Positions 6,121 through 17,662 of a stretch of DNA of 64,000 nucleotides are shown piece by piece. The translations under genes and the position numbers were made by a program. The stretch is from Flavobacterium sp. ACN2 (GTDB lineage Bacteria > Bacteroidota > Bacteroidia > Flavobacteriales > Flavobacteriaceae), in the NCBI RefSeq assembly GCF_002303885.1, contig NZ_MRCM01000003.1, forward strand, positions 302,063 to 366,062. Reading direction: 5' to 3'. Under the pieces are notes generated by a model. The model was not told the DNA's origin, did no database searches, and saw only the letters and a program-made list of their open reading frames with translations. Position 1 is the stretch's first letter, and each line of letters starts with the position of its first letter.

Positions 6121-9100
6121 TTAAAAGTTAACATTCAGACCCATTAAATAGGTTCTTGGCTGAGGATAATATCCAACATCAATACCTTTAGCCCAAGACT
6201 GATTTACGTTTCCGAAACCAATTTCTGGATCCATTCCTTTGTACTTTGTGAATGTATAAATGTTATTTCCTGCAACATACAATCTGAATTTGCTGAAGAA
6301 ACTAAGTTTTGTTGTCAGCTTTGTTAAATCACATCCGATTGTAGCATTTTTAATTCTGAAGAAATCTGAGTCCTGAATATACAAATCAGAGAATTTAGTA
6401 TAGTTACCATTATCATCTGTTCCGTATGTAACTCTCGGAATTCTGTTAGAAGTTCCTTCAGTTGTCCATCTTCCTAACACCTCTGTAGTGTTGTTTGTGT
6501 ACGCACGAGTATAATCGTGAACTCCAAAAACGTTTTGTCCTCCAGCGATACCGTAAGTATTAATAGAGAAATCAAAAGCTTTGTATGATAATTCTAAGTT
6601 AACCCCGTAATTAATATCTGGATTTGGATCACCAATTTGAGTTTTATCGTTTGCATCGATTTTTCCGTCACCGTTTAAGTCTACGAAACGAACGTCTCCT
6701 GGCTGTGCATTTGGCTGAACACCTGCTGCAACTTCAGTAGCATTTTGGAAAATTCCGTCTGTTTTTAATCCGTAGAAATAGCCCATTGGTTTTCCAACCT
6801 CAACACGGTTCATTTCGTCTAGACCTTGAAATAAAACGTTTGATTCTCCGTGAATGATTCCTTCGTTGTTAGCAATTTTCAACACTTCATTTTGGTTACG
6901 AGAAAGGTTTGCATTGATAGCAAAATTCCAGTCTTTTCCAAAACGTGTACGGTAAGATAAACCAATTTCAAAACCTTTATTGCTTACGTCTCCACCATTA
7001 ATGTAAGGTGCAGTTGCTCCAGCATAAGTTGGGATAGAGGCCAATACTAACCAATCTTTGGTTTTCTTGTCGTAGTAATCAAAAGTCAAAGTAAAGTTGG
7101 TGAACAACGTAGCATCAAAACCTAAATCTAACTGCTCAGAAGTTTCCCATTTTAAGTTACGGTTTGCTAATTGGTCTGGGCTTGAACCTACTAAAAGGGT
7201 TTCGTCACCAGTTCCAAAATGATATGTTTTATCTGTAGAATTTACAGTTGACATATAAGCAAATCTTCTAGCAAATTGGTCGTTACCATTTTGTCCCCAG
7301 CTTGCTCTTAATTTGAATGTATTTAAAACTTTATTTTCTTTGAAGAAAGCTTCTTTATCTAAATTCCATCCTGCAGAGAACGATGGGAAAATAGCATATT
7401 TGTTATCTGGACCAAATTCTGATGAACCGTCACGACGAACTGTTGCAGAGAATAAGTATTTATTGTTGTAATCATACAATAAACGTCCGAAGTAAGACTG
7501 AATCGCATAATCTTTACGATTTCCTTTTACCACATTTGATGTCGGATCTTTTGCATTATCTAAATAAGCGTGCTCGAAATCATCAAAAATTAAGTTTCTT
7601 CCTTGCCCTTCCATATAATCAGAAGTATTCTTTTTAGCAGAAGTACCCACTAACACATCAAAATTATGAGAATCAGCAATGTTAAATTTGTATTGAAGTG
7701 TGTTTTCAAAAATCCATCCTAACGATTTTGTTGCGCTTTGAGTTACGCTAGAAACTGTATTATTATCATTTGAAGAAAGCGAATAAACTGGTCTGAAAGA
7801 ACGGTAATTGCTATCTGTCATATCAACACCATAACTAGTTCTGAAAGTAAAGTTTTTTGCAAATTTTAATTCCGCAAAAATGTTACCTACATAACGATTT
7901 GTTTTAGTCTGATTAAAGTTGTTATAGTATAAAGATCCAACTGGGTTACTAATATCTTGAGAAATAATAGAACGTGCAAAATCTCCATTTTCGTCATAAG
8001 CCTGATCAATTGGAGCTGCATTTAAGAAAGCTCTAATTGCGTTGCTGTAGATACCATCATCTGCAACACCACTAGACTTGATGTTTGATAAAGTGAAGTT
8101 TTCACCAATTTTCAAATATCCTTTAATAACTTCAGAAGTCGAGTTTACTGAAAAAGTAACACGATCGTATTGAGATTGGTTAGTAGATCCTCCAATCATA
8201 CCTTCTTGTCCGTAGTAAGATAAACCAGTTGCAATGGTAGATTTTTCGTCACCTCCAGTAATCAAAAGGGAGTGATTTTGTTTCATTGCGCCTTCGTTAA
8301 ATAAATCTTTCTGCCAATCATGATCAGGAAATGCAGCAATTTGCTCTTTAGTATATAATGGCGCATATCCAGAATTTACACGAGCCTCATTCATTATTGT
8401 TGTATACTCTTGTGTATTCATCAAATCCAGTTTTTTAGCAATCTGCTGAAAACCTGTATAAGAACTGAAAGACACATTCATTTTACCATCTTTTCCTTTT
8501 TTTGTTGTAACCAAGATAACTCCGTTTGCGGCTCTTGCTCCGTAGATAGAAGCTGCAGAAGCATCTTTCAAAACGTCAACCCTTTCAATTACCGAAGGAT
8601 CAAGGTATCCAATTCCATTATCCACTACTACACCATCAACCACATAAAGCGGATCACTGTTTCCTGCTGTACCTGCTCCACGAATATTTACCACCATATT
8701 CGCACCTGGCTGTCCAGAAGATGAAGTTACCGAAACCCCAGAAGCTTGACCTTGTAAAGCATTTACAACATCAAGACTCGCAACCTGCTGAATGTCTTTT
8801 CCAGACACCAAAGAAGTTGCCGCAGTATTTACTTTCTTCTTTTGAGTACCGTAACCGATTACTACAATTTCTTTAAGTTCTGAAGTTTCTGGATTCAAAA
8901 CGACATTGATAACTTTTTGAGTTCCAACCGTAATATTCTGCGATTTGAAACCTACAAAAGTGATTACCAAAACATCTCCTGTTTTAGCCTCCACTTTATA
9001 TTTTCCATCAAAATCGGTAACAGTACTCGATTTTGTTCCCTGTACTTGTACAGTTGCTCCTGGAACTCCAAATCCGTCTTCGGAAGAGGTAATTGTCCCA

Positions 9101-9210
9101 CTTACAGTTTTGGATTCTTGAGCAAATCCAAACTGCATCATAAATACGCTAAGCAGCACCGCCATAAAATATGGAAGCTTTGTTGTTTTAATACAATTTT
9201 TGCTTTTCAT
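6121..9210 (-). CDS. SusC/RagA family TonB-linked outer-membrane transporter
   Basis: This 1029-aa protein has a signal peptide (MQFGFAQ cleavage region), a carboxypeptidase-regulatory-like beta-sandwich (about 35-112), a plug domain starting near EIVVIGYGTQKKK (the conserved SusC motif) and a 22-strand beta-barrel with the typical late motifs (GDVRFVDLNGDGKIDANDKTQIGDPNPD). It ends in an aromatic residue (Phe), as outer-membrane barrels do. The family imports oligosaccharides across the outer membrane, powered by TonB-ExbBD. It is the first gene of the operon. The upstream gap is long (612 bp) and no perfect TTG-N19-TAnnTTTG promoter is visible, so the gene may depend on an activator or use a weak promoter. 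Confidence 0.97.
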   Translation of the reverse strand: MKSKNCIKTTKLPYFMAVLLSVFMMQFGFAQESKTVSGTITSSEDGFGVPGATVQVQGTKSSTVTDFDGKYKVEAKTGDVLVITFVGFKSQNITVGTQKVINVVLNPETSELKEIVVIGYGTQKKKVNTAATSLVSGKDIQQVASLDVVNALQGQASGVSVTSSSGQPGANMVVNIRGAGTAGNSDPLYVVDGVVVDNGIGYLDPSVIERVDVLKDASAASIYGARAANGVILVTTKKGKDGKMNVSFSSYTGFQQIAKKLDLMNTQEYTTIMNEARVNSGYAPLYTKEQIAAFPDHDWQKDLFNEGAMKQNHSLLITGGDEKSTIATGLSYYGQEGMIGGSTNQSQYDRVTFSVNSTSEVIKGYLKIGENFTLSNIKSSGVADDGIYSNAIRAFLNAAPIDQAYDENGDFARSIISQDISNPVGSLYYNNFNQTKTNRYVGNIFAELKFAKNFTFRTSYGVDMTDSNYRSFRPVYSLSSNDNNTVSSVTQSATKSLGWIFENTLQYKFNIADSHNFDVLVGTSAKKNTSDYMEGQGRNLIFDDFEHAYLDNAKDPTSNVVKGNRKDYAIQSYFGRLLYDYNNKYLFSATVRRDGSSEFGPDNKYAIFPSFSAGWNLDKEAFFKENKVLNTFKLRASWGQNGNDQFARRFAYMSTVNSTDKTYHFGTGDETLLVGSSPDQLANRNLKWETSEQLDLGFDATLFTNFTLTFDYYDKKTKDWLVLASIPTYAGATAPYINGGDVSNKGFEIGLSYRTRFGKDWNFAINANLSRNQNEVLKIANNEGIIHGESNVLFQGLDEMNRVEVGKPMGYFYGLKTDGIFQNATEVAAGVQPNAQPGDVRFVDLNGDGKIDANDKTQIGDPNPDINYGVNLELSYKAFDFSINTYGIAGGQNVFGVHDYTRAYTNNTTEVLGRWTTEGTSNRIPRVTYGTDDNGNYTKFSDLYIQDSDFFRIKNATIGCDLTKLTTKLSFFSKFRLYVAGNNIYTFTKYKGMDPEIGFGNVNQSWAKGIDVGYYPQPRTYLMGLNVNF

Positions 9211-9822
9211 AATAAGAATTGATTAAGTTTAAGTTATAGTTAGTGTTTTTTTACCCTACGAGAAATCCGGAAAAACTTCCCAAGCAGGTCATGCCAAAAA
9301 AGAGGGCCTGAATCTCTTTTCCAACATTTAGTACTTGCAGACTATAAACAACTTTAAAATCGATTCTTTGGGCAAAATCTGATGATGGTAATCTCATCAA
9401 AAAGCGATTTAAATCAATTTCTAAAAAAAACATTTGTGGTAAGTTTAAGTTAAGTGTAGTTTTGTTCTTTTTTACTTATAGTCAATTTGAATTTATCTTA
9501 TGGTAAATTTGACTACAAGTGTAAAACAAATTTTCTATATTAACAAAATATTAGGGTTATTTTTTTTCGATTCTGATTAATCCTAATCCATTTTTATTAA
9601 TGTTGTAAAATCTGAACGAGAATTGAAATAAAAAATATAAAAAAATCAACGTTTTATAAAATTGACAATCAGTCGTTTAAGAATTAATTTAAAAAGAACG
9701 CTTTTTTAGTACATTCTTAAACGACTGATTATCAAAATTTTGTTTCGTTAAAAAAAATATAAGGCTTTCAAAAAGGTTACTAATGATTTTATTTATTTAA
9801 TTTGTCAAAATTTATCTCATAT
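9211..9822. other. Divergent intergenic region between susC and the NUDIX regulators
   Basis: This 612-bp AT-rich gap must hold the divergent promoters. I see: a 13-nt direct repeat TAAGTTTAAGTTA at 9224-9236 and 9440-9452; a weak inverted repeat around 9479-9515 (outer arms TAGTCAA/TTGACTA); and the strong inverted repeat 9667-9730. A short leftward open frame, 9251-9433 (60 codons), starts just after the second TAAGTTTAAGTTA copy and is discussed under findings. I do not call it as a gene. No tRNA or terminator is evident. Confidence 0.7.
9667..9730. promoter_or_regulatory. Perfect 18-bp inverted repeat, candidate operator
   Basis: Arms AATCAGTCGTTTAAGAAT (9667-9684) and its exact reverse complement (9713-9730) are separated by 28 AT-rich bases. 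Beyond one mismatch the pairing resumes to 9662 and 9735. The element is about 93 bp upstream of the first NUDIX-regulator start and on the susC side of that promoter. Arm centres are about 46 bp apart, so it could bind two dimers or form a long hairpin. Binding by the adjacent NUDIX regulators is an inference. Confidence 0.6.
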
Positions 9823-10539
9823 ATGGTTGAAAATGTAGACGACAAAACTGCTTCAAAAAATGAAAACAGTGCGATGAATGCCATCACAATTGACTGTGTC
9901 ATTTTTGGATTTGACAAAGGCAGTCTTGAAGTACTTTTGGTACAACACGCCGAAGGTATCAGTAAAGGGAAATGGGGACTTCCAGGTGGATGGATTTATA
10001 AAAAAGAAAGCACCGACAATGCCGCTCATCGGTTATTGAATGAGCTTACGGGTCTTGACAATATTTATCTGGAACAATTGAAAGCATTTGGAGATCCAGA
10101 TCGTTTTCCGCTGCGACGCGTTATTACGATTGGGTATTATGCTCTTGTAAAAAGAGAAGATTATAACATTAAAGCAGGTTTTACAGCTTCTGATGCGAAA
10201 TGGTATAAAATCAATGAAATTCCAGATTTGATTTATGACCACAACGAAATTCTTGATTACAGCATAAAACATCTTAGAAATAAAGTGCGCCAGACACCGA
10301 TTGGTTTTAATCTATTACCCGAAAAATTCACTTTATTACAATTGATGCATTTGTATGGAGAAATTTTAGGAATCGAAATGGACAAACCCAACTTTAGAAG
10401 AAAAATTCTTCATATGAAACTGCTGGTTGCATTAGACGAAAAGCAGCAGGATGTATCGCACAGAGCAGCTCAACTGTACAAGTTTGATCCAGAAATCTAT
10501 GAAAAACTCACTGAAAAAGGATTCAATTTTGAATTCTAA
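9823..10539 (+). CDS. NUDIX-fold transcriptional regulator (NrtR/AraR type), copy 1
   Basis: I start it at the ATG at 9823 (238 aa); an in-frame TTG at 9802 would add seven residues. The N-terminal 140 residues are a NUDIX domain (ITIDCVIFGF, GKWGLPGGW). The NUDIX box is degenerate: it keeps G-x5-E but has RLLNELTG where hydrolases have REUXEEXG, so two catalytic Glu are lost. This fits a sensor rather than an enzyme. The C-terminal 90 residues are the winged-helix domain of this family (LPEKFTLLQLMHLYGEILG, RRKILHMKLL). NrtR-family members bind sugar- or NAD-derived ligands; Bacteroides AraR controls arabinose genes. Divergent from the SusCD operon and followed by a paralogue, it is the likely local regulator of glycan use. 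Confidence 0.88.
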   Translation: MVENVDDKTASKNENSAMNAITIDCVIFGFDKGSLEVLLVQHAEGISKGKWGLPGGWIYKKESTDNAAHRLLNELTGLDNIYLEQLKAFGDPDRFPLRRVITIGYYALVKREDYNIKAGFTASDAKWYKINEIPDLIYDHNEILDYSIKHLRNKVRQTPIGFNLLPEKFTLLQLMHLYGEILGIEMDKPNFRRKILHMKLLVALDEKQQDVSHRAAQLYKFDPEIYEKLTEKGFNFEF

Positions 10540-10574
10540 TTTTCAATACACAATACTAACACCACAACAACAAA

Positions 10575-11276
10575 TTGACTGAAATAACTACTAACCAACA
10601 CAAACCAGCAGTAGACGGAATCACGATTGACTGTGTTTTCTTCGGATTTAACAAAGAGAGTCTCGAAGTGCTCTTGGTGCAGCATGCAGAAGGAGAAAGT
10701 AAAGGCAAATGGGGACTTCTTGGCGGATGGCTTCAAATAGACGAAAGTGCAGATAATGCTGCCCAACGAATTTTACAAGAACTTACTGGTCTCGAAAACA
10801 TCTATTTGGAACAATTAAAAGCCTTTACAAATCCGCAGCGTGTTCTGGAAAGACGTGTGGTTACCATTGGTTATTATACTTTGGTCAATAGAGAAGATTA
10901 TAATATTAAAGCCAGTTTAAAGGTTTTTGAAGCAAAGTGGTTCAAAATAAACGAAATTCCTGAGCTGATTTTTGACCATAACGAAATTCTTGATTTCAGT
11001 TTATTGCAATTGCGAAATAGAGTTCGTCAGGCTCCAATTGGTTTTAACCTTCTTCCAGAAAAATTTACTTTATTGCAATTAATGCATTTGTACGAAGAAA
11101 TTCTTGGAATCGAATTGGATAAATCTAATTTTAGACGAAAAGTGCTTCATATGAAACTGCTGACAGCATTGGATGAAAAGCAAAAAGACGTTTCGCACAG
11201 AGCGGCCAAACTTTATAAATTTGACCCCGAAATGTATAAGAAATTAACAGAAAAAGGATTCAATTTTGAATTTTAA
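10575..11276 (+). CDS. NUDIX-fold transcriptional regulator (NrtR/AraR type), copy 2
   Basis: This 233-aa protein is closely similar over its whole length to the preceding gene (the final 40 residues differ at only a few positions) and begins 35 bp after it, so this is a tandem duplication. The only possible start is TTG at 10575: an in-frame stop lies 18 bp upstream (10557) and no ATG occurs before the NUDIX domain. The NUDIX box is again degenerate (RILQELTG). It has the same winged-helix C-terminus (FTLLQLMHLYEEILG). Probably cotranscribed with copy 1. The two copies may answer to different ligands or form heterodimers; nothing in the sequence decides this. Confidence 0.86.
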   Translation: MTEITTNQHKPAVDGITIDCVFFGFNKESLEVLLVQHAEGESKGKWGLLGGWLQIDESADNAAQRILQELTGLENIYLEQLKAFTNPQRVLERRVVTIGYYTLVNREDYNIKASLKVFEAKWFKINEIPELIFDHNEILDFSLLQLRNRVRQAPIGFNLLPEKFTLLQLMHLYEEILGIELDKSNFRRKVLHMKLLTALDEKQKDVSHRAAKLYKFDPEMYKKLTEKGFNFEF

Positions 11277-14181: not shown

Positions 14182-14379
14182 TTATGACAGAAGTGTTCCG
14201 CATATTCCTAATCCAATAATTAAATATAATGCTCCAATAATAAAACAAACTTTTGCTCCATTGGGACTATTTTTCTTAACTGCAAAACCGATAATGGTCA
14301 TTAAAATTGGTGGGCCAACCATAATCGCTACAAAAATTGCGACCAAACCACTTAAATTACCTACTTCTAGTGCTGTCAT
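14182..14379 (-). CDS. Small two-helix membrane protein in radical-SAM operon
   Basis: This 65-aa protein has two hydrophobic helices (about residues 10-34 and 42-62) joined by a basic, polar turn with KKNSPNGAK. It starts 5 bp after the radical SAM gene stop, which argues that it is a genuine operon member rather than a chance frame. A longer frame on the plus strand over the same bases has no recognisable features. I do not recognise the family. Its size and topology suggest a membrane anchor or accessory subunit of the lipid-related proteins encoded upstream. Confidence 0.65.
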   Translation of the reverse strand: MTALEVGNLSGLVAIFVAIMVGPPILMTIIGFAVKKNSPNGAKVCFIIGALYLIIGLGICGTLLS

Positions 14380-14384
14380 ATTCT

Positions 14385-15776
14385 TTATATGTTAGTTCTT
14401 AATTCTTCTAATCTTTTTACTTTATCGTCTCTGTAAAACAAATTCATGGTTTCAAAAGGAATTATTTTATTATCCTTATTGACAATATGTACGCATGATT
14501 TTTTTATTGCTCTCACATCAAAATTATAGGCATCAATAAACTGCATGATAATAATTCTAAACAGATTGTCATATCCTAATTCTGGTGCATCAATATTAGG
14601 AAGGCAGCATAATATCGATTTCAAGTTTTCTTGTGCTACTTCTACAGAATTTCCTGTACTAAACAAATCTATCATTTTGCCTCGAAGCACTTCGTCCTGC
14701 TCATAAATAATGGTGTTTTTACTATTGTCCAATAAATCATTTGGATTAATATATCTCGTTAACGGGAAAACTTCGTCTCCTAACTTCAACGCATAACCCA
14801 TTACTAAAGCATCAGGATTACAGGGAACAGGAAGTAAATCATCTGAATTAAAAACAGTCGTTTGCTCCAGAATTTTTCTTCTTACTTCTGTTAATGTCAT
14901 GCGATCGGTTTCGAGGTTAAAGTTCTCCAATCTACCCGCTATTTGAGTCGGCTGAAATGTAACCCCTCGAACGCATTTTTGCTTTAGTGCAAACTCAACA
15001 ATTTTACCGATTTCATGATCGTTTAATCCTTTTTGAAGCGTAACAACCAAAGTGGTAGATAAATTAACTTCATTTAGATTTTCTAAAGCCTGTTTTCTTA
15101 TTTCACTTAAATCGGCTCCACGCAATTCCTGCAATACACTATCTTCAAAAGAATCAAACTGAAGATAGATTTCAAAATCTGGAGCATAGCTTTTTAGCCT
15201 CTGAACGAATTCTTTGTCTTTTGCAATTTTAATTCCGTTTGTGTTTAGCATTAAATGCTTTATCGGAATTGATTTTGCATAATCCAAAATTTCAAAAAAT
15301 TCAGGATGTATGGTTGGTTCTCCTCCGCTAATCTGCACTACATCGGGTTCTTTTTCGTTTTTAACAACCGTATCGAGCATTGCTTTTATTTCTTCGAGAG
15401 TTCTGTGTCTACCATAACTAGGTGATGAACCGGCATAACAAGTCGGACATGTCAGATTGCATCGATCTGTAACCTCAACAACTGTAAGGCAAGAATGCTG
15501 TTCATGATCTGGACATAAACCACAATCGTACGGACAACCATAGTGCGTTTTTGTATTAAAAGTGTACGGCATCTCAGATGGTTTATTGTAGTTTCGGATA
15601 TTCTTGTAATACTGAATATCGTCAGCAATCAAAACCTTAGAACTTCCATGTTCCGGGCATCTTTTAAGCATGTAGACATTCTCGTCTTCAAAAACAATTT
15701 TAGCATCAATTCTCTTTAAGCATTCTGGACAAAGGCTTAATGTAAAGTCATAATAAGTATATTTTCTAACTGGCAT
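14385..15776 (-). CDS. Radical SAM enzyme of the MJ0619/Tes type (COG1964-like)
   Basis: This 463-aa protein begins with a zinc- or iron-binding region (C16-x2-C19 and C40-PEHG), then a second Cys cluster C81-x3-C85-x2-C88, then the radical SAM motif C106-x3-C110-x2-C113 and the GGEP motif (151-154). A late segment with CVHIV and IIPFETMNLFYR is also typical of this family. The archaeal member MJ0619 is the tetraether lipid synthase Tes, which joins lipid chains by sp3 C-C coupling; the N-terminal multi-cluster layout here is the same. The substrate in this bacterium is unknown. Its start overlaps the end of the upstream Lgt-like gene by 11 bp and a small membrane protein follows after 5 bp, so it may modify lipids or a lipid-linked molecule; this is inference. 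Confidence 0.82.
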   Translation of the reverse strand: MPVRKYTYYDFTLSLCPECLKRIDAKIVFEDENVYMLKRCPEHGSSKVLIADDIQYYKNIRNYNKPSEMPYTFNTKTHYGCPYDCGLCPDHEQHSCLTVVEVTDRCNLTCPTCYAGSSPSYGRHRTLEEIKAMLDTVVKNEKEPDVVQISGGEPTIHPEFFEILDYAKSIPIKHLMLNTNGIKIAKDKEFVQRLKSYAPDFEIYLQFDSFEDSVLQELRGADLSEIRKQALENLNEVNLSTTLVVTLQKGLNDHEIGKIVEFALKQKCVRGVTFQPTQIAGRLENFNLETDRMTLTEVRRKILEQTTVFNSDDLLPVPCNPDALVMGYALKLGDEVFPLTRYINPNDLLDNSKNTIIYEQDEVLRGKMIDLFSTGNSVEVAQENLKSILCCLPNIDAPELGYDNLFRIIIMQFIDAYNFDVRAIKKSCVHIVNKDNKIIPFETMNLFYRDDKVKRLEELRTNI

Positions 15777-16509
15777 TTTTTACAAATAAATTTAAAATTG
15801 TTTTGTTATAATAAAGCAGACAAATCAAACATAAAATCTGAATCGAACTTATTCCAAAAATCAGGAAATAATTGGGTTTCAGAAATTCTACAAAAAAGCG
15901 AAATGCAAAATAGGCAATCATAAAATACTGAAATATAAGTCCGTTTTTTATATTTCTGCTTTTTAATTTCTTGAGAACAAAAAACAAAATGATCAGAAAA
16001 ATTAATTCGTACAAGGCAATTGGATGCCTCATAATATTGTCGCCAAGATTCATCCCAGTAAAAAAGTTTGTTTCTTTTCCATATGTAAACTCATTGGTTC
16101 CAGATAAAAAACAGCCTATTCTTCCTATAAAAATTCCTAGAATAATCGGAAAGGTAAATAAATCACCCGATGACTCTTTTTCTCCTATAATCTTCTTAGC
16201 AATTTCAACGCCTAAAAGTCCGCCAAACAATCCTCCCATAATGGTCTTCGCATTGAAGAGTTCTAAAATTGATCTTGCATCAAGATGAAAAACAGGATTT
16301 TCTAGAAAACCCATAATTCTAGAACCCAAAAAAGCTCCAATTGCAGCTCCCAATATAATAGATAATCTATTGGAAGAAACAATAGTATCATTGGTTCTTT
16401 TTCTCAAAAAAACATAATAACGATATCCTAAAAAAAATGCCAGATATTCTAAAACTAAATGGATACTGATTTCATAACCAAAAATAACCGGCTCAAAAGG
16501 AAACTTCAT
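15766..16509 (-). CDS. Lgt-like integral membrane protein
   Basis: This 247-aa protein has about seven membrane segments. It resembles prolipoprotein diacylglyceryl transferase: GGLLG near residue 97, GRIGCFLSG (R130, where Lgt has GRxGNF), RHPIALYE (161-168) and FRFFVEF (R204, E208). Two key Lgt features differ: the segment that carries the essential His in Escherichia coli Lgt (SFHGG) reads GLFGG, and the Asn after GRxG is Cys. It is therefore unlikely to be the housekeeping Lgt and may transfer a lipid moiety to another acceptor or simply bind phospholipid. It is the first gene of the operon with the radical SAM enzyme. Confidence 0.75.
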   Translation of the reverse strand: MKFPFEPVIFGYEISIHLVLEYLAFFLGYRYYVFLRKRTNDTIVSSNRLSIILGAAIGAFLGSRIMGFLENPVFHLDARSILELFNAKTIMGGLFGGLLGVEIAKKIIGEKESSGDLFTFPIILGIFIGRIGCFLSGTNEFTYGKETNFFTGMNLGDNIMRHPIALYELIFLIILFFVLKKLKSRNIKNGLIFQYFMIAYFAFRFFVEFLKPNYFLIFGISSIQILCLICLLYYNKTILNLFVKNAS

Positions 16510-16702: not shown

Positions 16703-17662
16703 ATGCTTGACGAAACTCCAAAACGATTTGACCGAATTGTAGCTATTCTTATTCAATTGCAATCTAAAAAGGTTGTAAAAGCCCAAGAATTGGCCGATCG
16801 TTTTGAATGTAGTTTGAGGACGATTTATAGAGACATTCGAACTTTGGAAGCCTCTGGCGTTCCTATTTATAGCGAAGCAGGAGTTGGTTATGCATTGATG
16901 GATGGTTATCGGCTACCGCCAGTTATGTTTACGCGCGAAGAAGTAAGCAGTTTTATTGCAGCCGAAAAATTGATGCAGAAATTTACCGATCCTTCTTTGG
17001 GAACACATTACGCGTCGGCGATGTACAAACTGAAATCGGTTTTAAGAAGTAACGACAAAGATTATCTTTCGAGCATCGAATCTAGAATTGTAATGCAGGA
17101 TGCAGAACCAATGTTTAATGATAATTCGCCTAATACTTTGTCTGTTCTTTTTGAAGGAATTGCAGAGAAAAAGCAAATTCTTTTAACTTATAAAACTTTT
17201 GATAAAGACGAAACAACACAGCGTAATCTTGAGCCAATAGGCGTTTTTCATGATAATAATAACTGGTATTTTCTGGGCTATTGTCATCTTCGAAAAGATT
17301 ATAGACAATTTCGAACCGATAGAATTCAGGAAATAAAAAAAACCGATGTAGATTTTACGATCGAACACGATGCTTTAGAAACCTATTTAACTAAAACAGA
17401 AACCTGCCCAACAACAAAAGTTCGTATTTTAATTGACCGCAAAATAGCACGATATTTGGCAACCGAGAGAAAATATCATGGCTTTATTTCGCAAAAAGAC
17501 GTAGGTGAAAAAATCGAAATGACCTTTATGTCTAGAGATATTAATAACGCTTTTCCGAGATGGTTTTTGATGTATGGAGATTACGCAGAAATTCTCGAAC
17601 CTGAGATATTAAAAACCAATGTCTTAGAATTATTGGAAATTAACAGAAAAAGGCTTTTATAA
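16703..17662 (+). CDS. WYL-domain transcriptional regulator (YafY type)
   Basis: This 319-aa protein starts with a DeoR-like helix-turn-helix (about residues 8-62; AQELADRFECSLRTIYRDIRTLEASGVPI), followed by a linker with GYRLPPVMFT and a WYL domain (about 140-225; NNWYFLGYCHLRKDYRQFRTDRI) and a WCX C-terminal region. WYL proteins sense nucleic-acid or small-molecule ligands and often control neighbouring stress genes. It is convergent with two DinB-fold genes whose promoter has a 24-bp palindrome, a plausible binding site for this regulator. Confidence 0.93.
   Translation: MLDETPKRFDRIVAILIQLQSKKVVKAQELADRFECSLRTIYRDIRTLEASGVPIYSEAGVGYALMDGYRLPPVMFTREEVSSFIAAEKLMQKFTDPSLGTHYASAMYKLKSVLRSNDKDYLSSIESRIVMQDAEPMFNDNSPNTLSVLFEGIAEKKQILLTYKTFDKDETTQRNLEPIGVFHDNNNWYFLGYCHLRKDYRQFRTDRIQEIKKTDVDFTIEHDALETYLTKTETCPTTKVRILIDRKIARYLATERKYHGFISQKDVGEKIEMTFMSRDINNAFPRWFLMYGDYAEILEPEILKTNVLELLEINRKRLL

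Follow-up and report, generated by a model that had tools for sequence, protein, structure and literature searches.

Two described systems come closest to the locus considered here. The archaeal tetraether synthase (Tes), a radical S-adenosylmethionine (SAM) enzyme, draws lipid tails into a hydrophobic pocket and joins their terminal carbons via a cluster-bound intermediate, as set out in parts of the structure report (PMC9433317). In prolipoprotein diacylglyceryl transferase (Lgt), the acceptor Cys enters laterally from within the bilayer, close to the outer face, according to a portion of the corresponding paper (PMC4728403). Here, we analyzed a 64-kb stretch of DNA from Flavobacterium sp. 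ACN2 (hereafter the window), in which consecutive genes encode an Lgt-fold membrane protein (LgtL), a radical SAM enzyme whose closest solved relative is Tes, and a small two-helix membrane protein. We tentatively propose that this trio is one conserved unit in which LgtL lipidates the C-terminal Cys of the small protein with a diacylglyceryl group and the radical SAM enzyme then alters, and most likely couples, the tails; this is the reading we prefer, and we would place it a little short of probable. The unit would be a form of protein lipidation, and possibly something newer if the tails are coupled. No description of a unit combining Lgt and a radical SAM enzyme was found in the open-access literature, to which the search was confined; an umpA lead proved to be an ordinary lgt under another name and was dropped.

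The original prediction had described three tightly coupled genes, and the open reading frame (ORF) coordinates agree with it. All three ORFs were where they had been located earlier, on the minus strand in the order LgtL, radical SAM enzyme and small protein, with an overlap of 11 bp between the first two and 5 bp from the radical SAM stop to the start of the small ORF:

15766..16509, minus strand: LgtL, an Lgt-fold membrane protein of 247 amino acids (aa), first gene of the operon.
14385..15776, minus strand: radical SAM enzyme of 463 aa with the tetraether-synthase fold.
14182..14379, minus strand: small two-helix membrane protein of 65 aa, predicted substrate of LgtL.

The description of the products as Tes-like, Lgt-like and a two-helix membrane protein was likewise borne out. 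Pfam matches were obtained for the enzyme (Zn_ribbon_HMPTM, 8.3e-21; Radical_SAM, 4.5e-28) and for LgtL (LGT, 2.5e-24; 86.4 bits, above the gathering cut-off of 24.9), and the solved structure closest to the enzyme by sequence was M. jannaschii Tes (7tol, 1.5e-74). The Pfam scan assigned no family to the small protein, whose one weak NCBIfam match was far below the cut-off of that model. The closest named relatives of LgtL were from Flavobacterium, and the only PF23545 gene in the window's genome was the radical SAM gene of the operon.

Conservation of the trio was examined first in a sample of 296 Bacteroidota genomes, 26 of which contained the enzyme (E 1e-20). LgtL adjoined it on the same contig in 23 of these, and the arrangement recurred in other phyla, so the check that the original prediction had proposed came out in its favor. 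LgtL was on another contig in G034 and G272 and was lacking in G066, where both the score and the sequence of the enzyme point to the archaeal Tes type. Conversely, 25 of the 26 Bacteroidota genomes with the best LgtL matches also had the enzyme, the exception being G017. Distribution within Flavobacterium was patchy, the unit being present in 7 of the 18 genomes sampled. When named genomes were scanned, 80 loci were obtained (one identical to L052), including those of Pedobacter, Chitinophaga, Aquimarina, Paenibacillus, Fictibacillus, several cyanobacteria, Reyranella, Clostridium, Elusimicrobia, Chlorobaculum and others; these are the best 80 of 566 confirmed stretches, ranked by one remote query, and the sample is uneven. 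The unit was present in at least six phyla. The earlier idea of an undescribed lipid or lipoprotein pathway thus holds in outline, whereas its restriction to Bacteroidota was too narrow.

Across 101 loci with a complete enzyme ORF, LgtL was found on the same strand and no more than 4 kb away in 90. These counts leave out L065 and L077 (no complete enzyme ORF), L060 (the same as L052), L054 (Tes-like) and L055-L058 (LgtL-only contigs or a repeat fetch). The 11 loci with no LgtL nearby comprised two with LgtL on another contig (L041 and L049), six with the enzyme near a contig end (L061, L069, L105, L114, L116 and L139) and the remaining L106, L109 and L126. LgtL was also accompanied by an enzyme 28-32% identical to that of the window, and by one or two small proteins, on plasmids from Mycobacterium branderi and M. 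avium and in a Nonomuraea record. When 246 genomes around an Actinomycetota locus were searched, 13 matched the M. branderi enzyme, and the four best LgtL matches adjoined the four best enzyme matches; G301 also had an LGT match beside the enzyme, and most LGT matches occurred without the enzyme, as expected for ordinary Lgt. A tree of 42 enzymes (L063, of 329 aa, was excluded) had a branch (97/90) that separated the trio-labelled rows from the Tes-like row and from three rows linked to a methyltransferase. The tree has long branches and an unsure deep order, and L061, L069, L105 and L139 were labelled trio by clade, LgtL being unseen in their stretches. The adjacency of the trio is more than chance.

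The small ORF looks like a real gene, since comparison with its relative L032 revealed 23 synonymous and 14 non-synonymous codon differences, with 33 of 51 base changes at third positions. Judged by position, the protein has no N-terminal signal peptide with a lipobox Cys; instead, helix 2 ends, on its C-terminal side, with Cys as residue 60 of 65:

14200..14202, minus strand: codon of the near-invariant Cys60, at the predicted outer end of helix 2; tail Cys in 79 of 82 adjacent small proteins.

Small proteins at the other loci were picked with Cys ignored, as ORFs of 50-160 aa with at least two hydrophobic helices, -70 to +150 bp from the end of the enzyme or LgtL; transmembrane helices were called by Kyte-Doolittle rather than by a trained predictor. 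Such a protein was adjacent at 82 of the 101 loci, with Cys in the last 30 residues in 81 and in the last 16 in 79 of them. As a control, 520 other long genes in the same loci were followed by such an ORF in 11 cases, with a tail Cys in 1 of these. The exceptions were L114, which has a longer tail and Cys at -23, and L105 and L113 (Alphaproteobacteria), in which Cys ends an earlier helix (GGC and LGC). The pick at L066 (51 aa) is probably in the wrong frame, a better ORF with FGVC lying at the same place. In 20 of the 23 similarity clusters into which the 82 proteins fell, every member had the tail Cys, so that this residue outlives the rest of the sequence. Sequence search with the Paenibacillus small protein gave 27 matches, all with Cys within AGITFLLNAACFG; all the named ones were from Paenibacillus or Tumebacillus, so the small-protein families of distant phyla are here linked by place and Cys rather than by sequence. 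The usual context of the residue was [ILV]-G-x-[GSA]-x-C. Net charge averaged +2.5 ahead of the Cys helix and +0.2 beyond Cys (the loop was more positive than the tail in 69 of 79 proteins and less so in 5), and under the positive-inside rule Cys is predicted, from charge alone, to lie at the outer (periplasmic) end of an in-to-out transmembrane helix. Tandem copies of the small gene, which suit a substrate role, were found at 18 of the 101 loci (20 were flagged; L063 and L068 were removed, as the DUF4395 tail had matched the pattern). Natural fusions of LgtL with the small protein were not seen among the inspected LgtL proteins longer than 268 aa. Given its near-invariant C-terminal Cys, the small protein is likely the substrate of LgtL, a point that is new beyond the original prediction.

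The predicted model of LgtL has the Lgt fold, and its score with the NCBIfam lgt model TIGR00544 (56 bits) did not reach the equivalog cut-off of 118.9. In 88 LgtL proteins, collected with a profile built from 22 of the loci also counted, R143, G154, P197 and R239 (E. coli Lgt numbering) were kept throughout, R143 and R239 being phosphatidylglycerol-binding residues of Lgt. H103 was replaced in all 88 (V 49, M 21, A 8, I 5, L 4 and T 1; never His, Tyr, Trp or Phe), N146 was Cys in all 88, and the place of Y26 was taken by His in 78. In LgtL, then, the residues for the lipid donor are retained and one at the acceptor site is altered:

16111..16113, minus strand: codon of Cys133 in LgtL, which occupies the position of Asn146 in E. 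coli Lgt; Cys in 22/22 and 88/88 LgtL proteins (overlapping sets) and an invariant column in the LgtL alignment (56 rows).

The original claim that the radical SAM enzyme resembles MJ0619 stood as regards fold and Cys ligand sets, and failed as regards the NCBIfam cut-off, Tyr459 and the PFC Cys. Its predicted model matched the tetraether-synthase fold strongly over the full length. The score with the NCBIfam Tes model NF045702 was 305 bits, below the equivalog cut-off of 450; the best-scoring NCBIfam model was that of TrsS (NF045646; 341.8 bits), whose equivalog cut-off of 490 was not reached either and which matched all 44 enzyme relatives scanned. The enzyme is thus Tes-like in fold and not a Tes by the NCBIfam cut-off. 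Its metal sites were compared in a residue table of 23 rows and a separate alignment of 44 rows:

15648..15731, minus strand: rubredoxin-like site Cys16, Cys19, Cys40 and His43; Cys trio in 23/23 rows, His43 nearly invariant in the alignment.
15495..15536, minus strand: N-terminal auxiliary cluster motif Cys81, Cys85 and Cys88 with the following His; Cys in 23/23 rows and, with His91 and His94, invariant in the alignment.
15438..15461, minus strand: radical SAM motif CX3CX2C, Cys106, Cys110 and Cys113; 23/23 rows, invariant in the alignment.
14820..14822, minus strand: Cys319, likely a C-terminal auxiliary cluster ligand; 22/23 rows, missing from the Tes-like row L054.
14493..14495, minus strand: Cys428, likely a C-terminal auxiliary cluster ligand; 22/23 rows, the exception being L039, whose match ends near a contig end.

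The rubredoxin-like ligand set is the same as that of GDGT-MAS in the sections of the structure report that deal with it (PMC9433317). The place of Tes Tyr459 is Ile in the window's enzyme (by a numbering offset deduced from the 7tol chain), the Cys of the Tes PFC motif is Glu, and the C-terminal Cys are otherwise placed. Both Y459F and Y459L variants of Tes are active, as stated in a part of the same report (PMC9433317); hence, loss of Tyr459 bears on membership of the Tes family and not on the chemistry.

On the basis of these data, LgtL would transfer diacylglycerol to the Cys of the small protein at the outer membrane face. The small protein would present this Cys at about lipobox depth in its predicted in-to-out helix, at the C-terminus. 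With Cys in this place, signal peptidase would not be needed, and no signal peptidase gene (LspA) was found in the unit. The enzyme may act on the tails of the resulting proteolipid, or on the lipid before transfer. We infer the order of the steps, the chemistry at the tails and, as the product, a small proteolipid.

Several points weigh against this proposal. The weakest one for it is access of the tails to the enzyme, since radical SAM enzymes are cytosolic and Lgt chemistry is periplasmic. Speculatively, joining tail to tail across the leaflets would solve this, because tail ends meet mid-membrane; it is possible, if unlikely, that the Lgt offshoot puts diacylglyceryl on a Cys in the last transmembrane helix and the enzyme joins a tail to a lipid of the opposite leaflet, so that a membrane-spanning lipid staples the protein through the bilayer. 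Second, LgtL could be inactive or have another role, given that E. coli Lgt requires each of H103, N146 and Y26, according to a portion of one study (PMC13251419), and the first two are gone from all 88 LgtL proteins and the third is His in most. As to N146, the L. interrogans Lgt with N146C had partial function in E. coli, as given elsewhere in that study (PMC13251419). In addition, three Lgts with Cys at this position and a GCCYG motif adjoin a gene read as lspA (L164 3722-4528, L165 3845-4471 and L167 3713-4504), and in some bacteria the role of main Lgt may fall to such proteins. Cys at 146 therefore need not abolish transfer, and the explanation that LgtL is dead through N146C was weakened. 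Third, the residue before Cys (I 22, A 22 and T 15 among 79 small proteins) fits a lipobox only in part. Fourth, 19 of the 101 loci had no small protein under the strict rule: one was found on later inspection in eight (L053, L067, L070, L092, L095, L100, L102 and L127), six were near a contig end (L039, L061, L069, L109, L111 and L126), and none was found after further inspection at L041, L072, L082, L090 and L139. Finally, G017 has LgtL with no enzyme at E 1e-20, and the other eight, weaker enzyme matches among the 13 of the Actinomycetota-centered sample showed no adjacent LgtL among the matches listed.

Other explanations were weighed against the same data. The enzyme might couple or alter the tails of ordinary phospholipids, with LgtL moving diacylglyceryl onto or off a small acceptor and the small protein serving as a structural or docking subunit whose Cys stays unlipidated; we regard this as rather unlikely. 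It would agree with the strong fold match of the enzyme to Tes, which acts on phospholipids (PMC9433317, in the parts concerned), and with the proposal, made without proof in passages of two papers (PMC8941075 and PMC11868695), that bacterial Tes homologues produce branched tetraethers. However, the Tes Tyr and PFC Cys are missing from the enzyme, and neither the Cys that outlasts the rest of the small protein nor the tandem copies would be explained. Iso-branched chains as substrates would suit Bacteroidota and Bacillota; yet cyanobacteria, which are not known to have such chains, carry the unit too.

Small genes in tandem copies beside a radical SAM enzyme are typical of ribosomal-peptide systems. 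By analogy, the enzyme might modify the small protein (for example, by a crosslink at or beside Cys) before membrane insertion, and LgtL might lipidate or escort it. Lipidated peptides that use the lipoprotein pathway exist, according to part of a preprint (PMC12636315). We consider such a pathway improbable for the trio.

It is very unlikely that Cys133 of LgtL and the Cys of the small protein form a disulfide or metal site, the trio being a redox-sensing membrane complex. Both residues are almost invariant, the variant operon described below adds a Cys-bearing DUF4395 protein, and possible sister loci have redoxins or a disulfide oxidoreductase. On the other hand, Cys at the LgtL position is also found in the three Lgts beside a putative lspA, with no enzyme within the 8-kb stretches seen, and the donor arginines kept in 88/88 LgtL proteins would lack an explanation. 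That LgtL is a spare lipoprotein Lgt in an accidental gene order is highly improbable: its Pfam LGT match exceeds the cut-off, but the window's genome already has two further Lgt genes, both with H103, N146 and E151, and the adjacency recurs across phyla, and the explanation was rejected on these counts. Methylation of a pterin by the radical SAM enzyme, to which only the Pfam name of the N-terminal domain (HMPTM) points, is hardly credible and was rejected, since the authors of the Tes structure, in the statements on MJ0619 in part of their report, could not corroborate its earlier assignment and found lipids in the pocket (PMC9433317), and the Lgt partner would be unexplained.

Some loci showed a variant arrangement, in which an ICMT/PEMT-type methyltransferase follows the enzyme (L051 and L052), and then come a DUF4395 protein (scored in L062 and L063), LgtL with GCCYG or a similar motif and the small protein:

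L051 8883-10730; L052 4784-6622; L062; L063: variant operon, methyltransferase and DUF4395 between the radical SAM enzyme and LgtL.

That a membrane methyltransferase adjoins the trio again suggests chemistry on lipids or on a lipidated Cys. In M. vanbaalenii and haloarchaea, relatives of the radical SAM gene (L140, L142 and L143) are accompanied by a methyltransferase and have redoxin or disulfide oxidoreductase genes nearby, whereas the stretch shown contains no annotated LgtL; these loci are candidates that are possibly of TrsS type. Among loci with LgtL, that of Flavobacterium davisii (L071 5280-5970) has the gene in two pieces, as separate ORFs beside an intact radical SAM gene, which is either a broken gene or a sequence error. 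The orphan LgtL of G017 (L055 7653-8498, minus strand) has no evident small protein nearby. The window's genome encodes, in addition to L001 and LgtL, a second, more divergent Lgt (L002; G000 C9:14800-15657; 310 aa, 27% to E. coli Lgt).

Within the window, a WYL-domain regulator (16703-17662, plus strand) is divergent from the operon and is followed by two DinB-like genes; it adjoins the trio only in the closest relatives. Two neighboring paralogous regulators lie at 9802-11276 (plus strand), the first with a NUDIX domain and an NrtR/AraR-type winged helix by Pfam; they are perhaps sugar-utilization regulators, and the large ORF beside them (6121-9210) resembles, by eye, a TonB-dependent receptor. 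Apart from the trio, only two neighbor families were found in more than four of 28 Bacteroidota loci (three with no anchor by the rule used), LepA-like in 8 and short-chain-dehydrogenase-like in 7 (both named by eye).

If the proposed lipidation pathway is true, a large set of bacterial homologues of tetraether synthase, at present taken for possible producers of branched tetraethers, could be assigned a function, with a bearing on geochemical biomarkers, and protein lipidation would gain a form that is independent of a signal peptide. Our data also define a family of tiny membrane proteins that has been overlooked and that ranges from Flavobacterium to mycobacterial plasmids.

Compared with known systems, the enzyme shares with Tes/GDGT-MAS (MJ0619, NF045702) the whole-length fold and the Cys ligands of the rubredoxin, N-auxiliary and CX3CX2C sites (23/23 rows), and differs from it in its score under the cut-off, Ile for Tyr459, Glu for the PFC Cys, the other C-terminal Cys and its partners, LgtL and the small protein. 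The TrsS radical SAM (seleno)protein model scores best for the enzyme, yet under its cut-off, and candidate TrsS loci differ in their neighbors. Relative to Lgt (TIGR00544; E. coli 5azb), LgtL has a hydrophobic residue or Thr at 103, Cys at 146 and mostly His at 26, and there is no LspA in the unit. In mycobacteria, M. smegmatis MSMEG_5408 is a second Lgt homologue, and two mycobacterial plasmids carry LgtL, small proteins and the enzyme together; a connection of MSMEG_5408 to the unit is a lead only. The closest parallel for a modified small peptide is the lipidated macrocyclic product of the dyb cluster, which enters the lipoprotein pathway after enzymatic modification; as described in part of the preprint (PMC12636315), that cluster differs from the trio in having an MNIO enzyme rather than a radical SAM enzyme, a classical N-terminal lipobox and an ordinary Lgt.

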